Source: Candidatus Contendobacter odensis Run_B_J11 | GTDB lineage: Bacteria; Pseudomonadota; Gammaproteobacteria; Competibacterales; Competibacteraceae | DNA length: 36,316 nucleotides | Assembly (NCBI RefSeq): GCF_000531125.1 | Contig: NZ_CBTK010000096.1 | Span: 1 to 36,316, forward strand | Reading direction: 5' to 3' | Part shown: piece after piece, positions 29,986 to 31,752 of the stretch | Position numbering within the stretch: the first letter of the stretch is position 1 | Layout of the letters: every line of letters starts with the position of its first letter | Notes under the pieces: generated by a model | Databases searched by the model: none | What the model saw: only the letters and a program-made list of their open reading frames with translations | What the model was told of the DNA's origin: nothing | Translations under genes and position numbers: made by a program

Positions 29986-31752
29986 ATGGCCTACAAGCAT
30001 ATTCGCATTCCCACGGTCGGCGAGAAAATTACGGTTCAGGACGGCAAGCTGCACGTTCCCGATCAACCTATTGTTGGTTTCGTGGAAGGCGACGGCATCG
30101 GTCCCGACATCACCAAAGCCTCGCTGCGGGTGTGGGATGCGGCGGTTGAAGAAGCCTACGCCGGTCAGCGCAAAATTCACTGGTGCGAAATTTATCTGGG
30201 CGAAAAAGCAGCGGAGATTTATGAGGGCAACTACTTCCCGGATGAAACCCTGGAAGCGATCAAGGAACTGGTGGTTGCCATTAAGGGGCCGTTGACTACC
30301 CCGGTGGGCGGCGGCTTCCGCTCGCTGAACGTGGCGTTGCGCCAAGACCTCGACCTTTATGCCTGTGTCCGCCCCGTCCGCTATTACCCCGGCGTACCGT
30401 CGCCGGTGCGCTTCCCGGAGAAGGTGGACGTGGTGATCTTCCGCGAGAACACCGAGGACGTCTACGCCGGTATCGAATACAAATCCGGCTCGCCCGAAAA
30501 CATCAAGCTGGCCAAGTTTCTGCGTGAAGAAATGGGCGCGACCTTCTTCGACGCCGCCGGTCTCGGCATCAAGCCGATCTCGCCGTTTGCCTCCAAGCGG
30601 CTGGTGCGCAAAGCCATCCAGTACGCGATTGACCACAACCGCGACAGTGTGACCCTGGTGCATAAGGGCAACATCATGAAGTTCACGGAAGGCGCCTTCC
30701 GTAACTGGGGTTACGAACTGGCGCGCGATGAATTCCCGGATCAGACCATCACCGAAAACGAACTGTACAGCATCCACGGCGGCAAACAGCCGCCCGGCAA
30801 GATTGTGATTAAGGATCGGATCGCCGACATTATTTTCCAGTTGTTGCAACTGCGACCGGAAGAATTCTCGGTGCTGGCGACCATGAACCTGAATGGTGAC
30901 TACCTCTCCGACGCGGTGGCGGCGGAAGTGGGCGGCATTGGCATCGCGCCCGGTGCCAACATGGCTGACCATGTGGCCGTGTTCGAGGCGACCCACGGCA
31001 CTGCGCCCAAGTACGCCAATCTGGATAAGGTTAACCCCGGTTCGCTGCTGCTGTCCGGGGTGATGATGCTGGAGTACATGGGCTGGAAGGAAGCCGCTGA
31101 GCTGATCGAAACCGCCCTGACCCAAGTGATCGCCGACAAGACCGTGACCTACGACTTTGCCCGGCAGATGGAAGGTGGCACCGAGGTTCCCACCAGCAAA
31201 TTCGCTGATCTGATCATCGTTAAAATCAAGGAATATGGCCCGGTCCTGCGCGAGGAAGCGGCCCGCCGTCGCCGCGCCCAGGAGGAAGCGCGCAAGGTGC
31301 TGGAAGCCGCCCGTGTCGCCGATCCGTTGCAGGCGATGATCGCATCCGGTCGCTTGCCCGGCACCGTAGGCGGCATCATGGCGCCGGTGGTCAGCGTCAA
31401 GAACGACGAAATGGTCAACGTCGCCATGCATCTGATGATCGAAAAGGGTGTGAACGCGGTGATGGTCGAGCCGGACGCCAGCGGGCAATGGGGCATCATG
31501 ACCGACCGCGACGTGCTGAAGAAAATCATCAGCGTCAATCGCTCGCCAGCGCGGGTGCAAGTGAGCGAAGTCACCACCCGCCCACTGGTGACGGTCAAGC
31601 GGGAAATGTCGCTGGCCGAAGCGTCGCAGCGCATGGCTGAGGCCAATGTGCGCCGGGTGGTGGTCGAGATGGACAGCAAACCGGTCGGCATGGTCACCGA
31701 CAACGATCTGTTCCGCGCCGTGGAAGTGTTCGGCTGGGGGCCTGACGTCTGA
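29986..31752 (+). CDS. icd: NADP-dependent isocitrate dehydrogenase fused to two CBS domains
   Basis: Residues 1-416 form an E. coli-type isocitrate dehydrogenase, converting isocitrate to 2-oxoglutarate in the TCA cycle. The active-site loop [19 protein letters not shown] has Ser113, the residue phosphorylated by AceK in E. coli. NADP use is indicated by Lys342, Tyr343, Val349, Tyr389 and Arg393, equivalents of the E. coli NADP-binding set. A charged linker (418-445) leads to a pair of CBS domains (about 463-525 and 526-588), with GIMTDRDVL and GMVTDNDLF repeats. CBS pairs usually bind adenine nucleotides and regulate their host protein. E. coli Icd, at about 416 residues, has none. A strong AAGGAGG precedes ATG 29986, and a terminator follows. 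Confidence 0.95.

Follow-up and report, generated by a model that had tools for sequence, protein, structure and literature searches.

Bacterial regulation by protein phosphorylation has its classic case in the control of isocitrate dehydrogenase (Icd) at the glyoxylate branch. The AceK-controlled Icds of E. coli and P. aeruginosa (IDH1) resemble the enzyme described here in their family (TIGR00183), their phospho-site serine, their NADP residues and the presence of isocitrate lyase in the genome. Unlike in the E. coli/P. aeruginosa system, no AceK match is found in the genome studied here, and E. coli-type Icds (416–418 aa) lack the CBS pair that makes up about 130 residues at the C-terminus of our fusion. 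The mitochondrial NAD-IDH (IDH3) is regulated through a paralogous subunit. It too is an allosteric Icd, the human alpha-gamma form having been solved, by the titles of the entries, with citrate and ADP (5gre) and with allosteric ATP (6l57); it has no CBS pair and is about 34% identical to the Icd part of the fusion. Branch-point control other than by phosphorylation is described for mycobacterial ICD, on which a metabolite acts directly, as we propose below for the fusion; the effector there is glyoxylate from isocitrate lyase, and the abstract names no CBS domain (PMC4999502).

CBS-regulated enzymes are already known as a kind, with CBS-pyrophosphatase, IMP dehydrogenase and AMPK as examples, and what a CBS pair senses is usually an adenine nucleotide. 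CBS-pyrophosphatase is likewise a metabolic enzyme with a CBS pair, its catalytic domain being unrelated to Icd, and IMP dehydrogenase differs from Icd in fold, substrate, CBS placement and pathway. The latter is nevertheless also a dehydrogenase with a CBS pair (Bateman module), described as being under purine-nucleotide control (PMC9462843). In the open-access literature that we searched, with most subscription journals outside its scope, no paper on an Icd–CBS fusion was found; the architecture may already be listed in domain databases. The window analysed here is a stretch of 36,316 nucleotides, contig NZ_CBTK010000096.1 of Candidatus Contendobacter odensis Run_B_J11, and contains such a fusion.

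Architecture of the fusion gene and its surroundings

A preliminary description of this DNA had proposed a complete NADP-type Icd, with Ser113 and the NADP residues intact, running in frame through a charged linker into two CBS domains. Pfam and NCBIfam matches confirm this arrangement with exact coordinates (Table 1), and the reading frame is free of internal stops. Misassembly, a frameshift or a chance fusion could be ruled out because relatives share the same architecture at 63–91% identity in dozens of genomes.

Table 1. Positions in the window of the fusion gene, its parts and its flanking elements
Feature	Position	Strand	Basis or remark
Ribosome binding site AAGGAGGG	29975..29982	+	read in the sequence; ends 4 bases before the ATG
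icd–CBS fusion gene	29986..31752	+	single ORF, 588 aa; ATG at 29986, stop ends at 31752
NADP-type isocitrate dehydrogenase part, residues 1–413	29986..31224	+	TIGR00183, 5m2e and Foldseek matches
Charged linker, residues 414–455, predicted helix 418–445	31225..31350	+	alignment and AlphaFold2
CBS domain 1, about residues 459–520	31360..31545	+	bounds read from alignment and model
CBS1 signature G-I-M-T-D-R-D, residues 503–509	31492..31512	+	T506 and D509 in 52/52 fusions
CBS domain 2, residues 526–579	31561..31722	+	best stretch to Pfam PF00571
CBS2 signature G-M-V-T-D-N-D, residues 568–574	31687..31707	+	G568 and D574 in 52/52 fusions
Possible intrinsic terminator	31782..31831	+	imperfect inverted repeat, then T6
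LysR-type regulator, divergent from icd	28871..29800	-	best match OxyR

The catalytic part scores 652.8 bits against the NCBIfam NADP-Icd model TIGR00183 (cut-off 567.3), with residues 3–413 covering positions 2–415 of the 417 in the profile, and Pfam Iso_dh matches residues 30–410 with 289.6 bits. The solved structure 5m2e, by its title P. aeruginosa Icd, aligns to residues 1–413. In this alignment S113 falls on Ser115 of PaIDH1, the phosphorylated residue of that enzyme, and K342, Y343, V349 and Y389 fall on its four NADP determinants Lys346, Tyr347, Val353 and Tyr393 (PMC10574006), so that all four are present. Both the family score and these residues in register uphold what had been proposed for the enzyme, and we infer that the fusion protein is an active NADP-dependent isocitrate dehydrogenase. 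S113 is kept in 33/33 aligned fusions; of the 52 fused proteins gathered, a single one has a gap at this position. Its equivalent is an active-site residue (title of 6icd/7icd), and an intact Ser113 is therefore uninformative on AceK control.

The linker of 42 residues is mostly helical by prediction, and its residues R443, P447 and G455 are invariant in 33/33 fusions. AlphaFold2 was run on the full-length protein with the 33 fusions, giving five models with mean pLDDT of 84.3 for the best and 80.8 to 66.9 for the others; in the best model the blocks of the helix reach a pLDDT of 84–92. The linker is charged, as had been noted, and with this predicted helix it is probably no loose tether. Foldseek compared the full-length model with E. 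coli Icd 4ajb at E 1.6e-53 and the best 50 matches listed were all Icds or related dehydrogenases; the tail was therefore modelled by itself. This model has a pLDDT of 92.7 and superposes on 5nvd with a VIA-align Z of 18.5 and an rmsd of 2.8 over 132 aligned residues, identifying a CBS fold.

Pfam PF00571 finds two CBS stretches in the window protein (67.2 bits, cut-off 24) and matches 33/33 fusions scanned. These 33 were drawn from the 52 fused proteins (11 of the 30 from the order and all 22 others), and signature positions were then checked across all 52. Every one of the 52 keeps T506, D509, R557, G568 and D574, with T (31) or S (21) at position 571; invariant among the 33 are T506, D509, G568, D574, P496, W502, P533 and R557, with S or T at 571. 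In an alignment of 27 tails, three of the positions T506, D509, 571 and D574 are among just 13 invariant ones of 143. A Thr/Ser...Asp pattern in each CBS domain is the adenosine-ribose/phosphate signature; because each site keeps it, both look competent for a ligand, and the kept signature fits an adenosine-type one. Compared with the window protein, the 33 fusions have an average identity of 0.80 over the Icd part, 0.44 over the linker and 0.56 over the CBS part. Among 25 order members the median dN/dS is 0.05 for Icd, 0.13 for CBS and 0.24 for the linker (276, 273 and 217 pairs used, respectively, of 300, those with dS ≥1.5 or non-computable being dropped). The CBS part is under purifying selection. 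No recent donor of the pair was evident in the organism's own genome, in which a whole-protein search found other CBS stretches only 25–31% identical.

The divergent LysR-type gene scores 235.8 bits against the OxyR model, under its cut-off of 329. An OxyR-like LysR gene adjoins icd in 26/30 order loci (1.5-kb flanks, some of them cut), and none was found at E ≤1e-20 in the 19 fused loci outside the order (L120–L138). The possible terminator follows icd directly; a pattern scan of the region gave four terminator-like sites where 2.3 are expected by chance. Antisense to icd lies an open frame of 728 aa (29797–31983, minus strand), which most likely mirrors codon bias and is no gene. Positions 31850–31955 (plus strand), between icd and the PBP1C gene, contain short inverted repeats that carry CGTCAT...CCCG motifs and look like a dispersed intergenic repeat.

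Distribution and descent of the fusion

The preliminary description had pointed to a survey of the fusion, which was carried out at the level of order, class and phylum. All 40 order genomes have an Icd of this type, and 38 of them show the CBS part: 33 in a single match that runs from residue 1 to residue 585 or beyond, and five more as a CBS region covered partly or wholly by broken or cut matches. In the remaining two, G010 and G034, the matches end before the CBS pair. Across the class, 273 of 369 evenly sampled genomes gave an Icd match and at least 23 of the 369 a full fusion, at 63% identity or above and spread over 15 family codes; matches were listed down to E 1.8e-157, a level at which a distantly related fusion could escape if its tail matched very weakly. 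One further class genome, G206, holds the fusion in pieces and brings the number to 24 if counted. Its Icd–CBS sequence lies over separate contigs (L190, L191), where two pieces break off at residue 368, each at the edge of a contig, which points to an assembly tangle or an insertion. Among the 80 loci listed from named genomes, a set from which near records may be absent, at least three are full fusions, in Aquisalimonas lutea (L042) and in two MAGs that carry the labels Gammaproteobacteria (L041) and Betaproteobacteria (L040). A 397-genome sample of the phylum, which overlaps the class sample, gave no fusion outside the class at the strict cut-off of E ≤1e-170, the only two found (G000 and G107) both belonging to this class.

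A tree of the Icd part was built from 82 chosen rows, 49 of them from the 273 class genomes with an Icd, 25 from other loci and eight being second Icds; the G219 locus (L165) was omitted and the cut loci L048 and L049 were unscored for CBS. Every fused row falls in one clade of 56 rows (support 100/100), which stands separate from the Icds common in Gammaproteobacteria. The outer rows of this clade are without CBS (G181; G295/G189; G320/G088; Arenicellales L047). AceK is present in four of the five outer G genomes and lies beside icd in three of them (G295, G189 and G320); its absence from G088 may stem from icd lying near a contig end, and the flanks fetched for L047 showed no aceK. Within the clade the CBS state changes about five times. 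A tree with the fusion as a single clade was rejected (p-AU 0.0016), so that losses, or repeated gains, are needed, and the simplest account is one gain followed by several losses. The bootstrap of the tree is unsettled, and the fork holding the fusions has support of 84/95. Among the CBS-less rows nested in the clade are a group in which G180 and G396 have AceK, the rows of family codes f106 and f113, which have no isocitrate lyase, and G209. The last of these (L146), nested among fused relatives, encodes a 438-aa Icd that stops within a shortened linker, and the fetched stretch shows no CBS domain; this is likely a recent loss of the pair.

AceK, isocitrate lyase and second Icds

The search for aceK that had been suggested for the organism's own genome was run and gave no PF06315 match at E ≤0.001; the genome is 99.5% complete and the E. 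coli control was positive. It does encode the glyoxylate shunt, with aceA and aceB side by side (locus L172) for an isocitrate lyase of 430 aa (NF011645, 791 bits, cut-off 562) and a malate synthase A of 532 aa (TIGR01344, 736 bits, cut-off 594.5). Monomeric Icd gave no match in this genome, and the one other Iso_dh gene (contig C23, cut at the contig start), considered as a second Icd, is LeuB (433 bits, cut-off 353).

Within the order, AceK occurs in one of 40 genomes (G039, a divergent relative with 220 bits) and isocitrate lyase pieces in 32 by reading of the matches; 34 have any match, G009 and G039 weak ones only. Of the genomes that are 90% or more complete and no more than 5% contaminated, 24 of 26 have isocitrate lyase, the misses being G001 and G039. 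For the class counts and the tree, isocitrate lyase was scored present at a best E <5e-18 with at least two pieces. By this measure it is present in 21/23 genomes with the fused and 78/250 with the non-fused Icd (Fisher p 1.6e-8, a value that, like those below, counts shared ancestry), four of the 21 resting on weaker matches (G022, 1.3e-25; G107, G144 and G203, about 1e-19 to 1e-22). AceK is found in 1/23 fused genomes, as a divergent relative, and in 46/250 non-fused ones. Restricting the comparison to genomes with both Icd and isocitrate lyase gives AceK in 1/21 fused versus 45/78 non-fused (Fisher p 9.7e-6), or 1/22 versus 45/77 (p 4.1e-6) with G206 moved to the fused set. Neither fusion nor AceK is present in 33 of these 78 non-fused genomes (32 of 77 with G206 moved), and lack of AceK thus needs no CBS pair. 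Corrected for the tree, an association of CBS with AceK or isocitrate lyase has no support: the 4–5 independent pairs show no consistent direction (median p 1) and have no power. As these contrasts are few and directionless, we treat the genome counts as suggestive; the pattern suggests that CBS and AceK may substitute for each other.

Control "besides or instead of AceK", as the preliminary description put it, is partly borne out. The organism's own genome, without AceK and with the shunt genes, agrees with it, whereas four genomes make a strict replacement less likely. In G243 and G039 the fusion coexists with a divergent relative of AceK, scoring 203 and 220 bits, respectively, against PF06315; G069 and G249 are fused and gave no match to isocitrate lyase (100% and 82% complete; a third such genome, G001, is 98% complete). 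The G243 protein matches the NCBI AceK model over its length with 426.6 bits, under the cut-off of 488, and a partial overlap of CBS and AceK controls is possible.

Divergent AceK relatives were seen at L170:1504-3282 (G243), L171 (G127) and G039:C33:32388-33155, with 203–220 bits to PF06315. Those of L170 and L171 are about 25% identical to typical AceK, and inspection by eye finds the Lys and Asp-Tyr-Asp motifs retained in that of L170; these proteins may target something else. A second Icd adjoins aceA in 7/23 fused genomes (G170, G120, G366, G165 and G348, at L188, L189, L193, L194 and L198; also G273 and G362), and the same aceA-icd2 pair occurs in the non-fused relatives G180, G313 and G396. 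In the five fetched loci this second Icd is 446–462 aa long, CBS-less by length and 55–62% identical.

Proposed nucleotide control and its alternatives

The reading that we favor is that of a working Icd whose activity would be set by an adenosine-nucleotide-binding CBS pair, doing here the job of AceK; taken as a whole, we consider it about evenly balanced between right and wrong. An adenosine nucleotide would bind the CBS pair, acting as a Bateman module, and the bound pair would alter Icd via the helical linker that follows its C-terminus. At low energy charge (AMP/ADP) Icd would run and isocitrate would be oxidized; at high charge (ATP) Icd would be restrained and isocitrate would flow to isocitrate lyase. 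The parts of this proposal differ in strength. On the signature residues, an adenosine nucleotide is the probable ligand class, and an effect of the CBS pair on Icd activity is rather likely. That the branch point is controlled in place of AceK falls slightly short of an even chance, and the direction, AMP/ADP permissive and ATP restraining, is a tentative choice, made because isocitrate would then be oxidized when energy is low and reach isocitrate lyase when it is high. The CBS-less P. aeruginosa Icd keeps 82–89% of its activity at 2 mM ATP, ADP or AMP (PMC10574006); with that enzyme barely inhibited by nucleotides, a strong nucleotide effect on the fusion would stand out.

The CBS pair might instead regulate Icd via another ligand (S-adenosylmethionine, NAD(P)(H), Ap4A, c-di-AMP or ppGpp) and report redox, methyl or stress state in place of energy charge. 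The signature is compatible with any adenosyl ligand, although in its full form, Thr/Ser plus Asp, it best suits adenosine phosphates. It is this full form that both sites carry, with nothing in the sequence pointing elsewhere, and we regard another ligand as unlikely, if the foremost of the alternatives. Fold matches of the tail speak to both sides of the question: they include CBS pairs solved with AMP, ADP, ATP or Ap4A, but also pairs bound to S-adenosylmethionine (3kpc, 4uuu), a c-di-AMP-bound pair (8ad6) and, in complex with ATP and ppGpp, an IMP dehydrogenase that carries CBS domains (7pmz). The earlier suggestion that the pair senses adenine nucleotides is hence plausible by its residues and by the first group of neighbors, the S-adenosylmethionine binders being neighbors equally.

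Adenylate control of Icd could also serve the general oxidative TCA cycle or the supply of NADPH or 2-oxoglutarate, the glyoxylate branch point being incidental. G069, G249 and G001, which are fused but gave no match to isocitrate lyase, would fit such a role, as would the 33 of 78 non-fused genomes that manage isocitrate lyase with neither AceK nor CBS; the excess of isocitrate lyase among fused genomes, in a count that ignores kinship, and its absence from several nested CBS-less lineages (f106, f113) argue the other way, and we judge this alternative a little less likely again. CBS pairs dimerise, and could join two Icd dimers; the tail might accordingly be structural, building a tetramer or filament or recruiting a partner with no small ligand involved. 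The closest fold match of the tail, CBS-CP12, is a hexamer by title, yet a pure scaffold would not require the ligand-signature residues that are invariant here, making this role improbable. That the tail is a functionless remnant drifting on an ordinary Icd is very improbable: it does evolve faster than the Icd part, is apparently lost in several lineages and has left G209 with its shortened linker, but its median dN/dS and the conservation of signature and length across 15 family codes contradict drift.

Returning to control by adenosine nucleotides, its evolutionary extension is more tentative than any of its parts. In at least 15 gammaproteobacterial family-level groups the glyoxylate/TCA branch point may be under an energy-charge switch within Icd. 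The CBS fusion would have arisen roughly once, in an Icd lineage with outer members that often adjoin aceK, would have replaced AceK, and would later have been dropped where isocitrate lyase was lost or AceK carried. If true, this would constitute a second, one-protein solution to the textbook phosphorylation-controlled branch point, and many Gammaproteobacteria would control the branch by direct metabolite sensing within a single polypeptide. The fusion would then, if the reading holds, also offer a ready-made energy-gated Icd for flux engineering.
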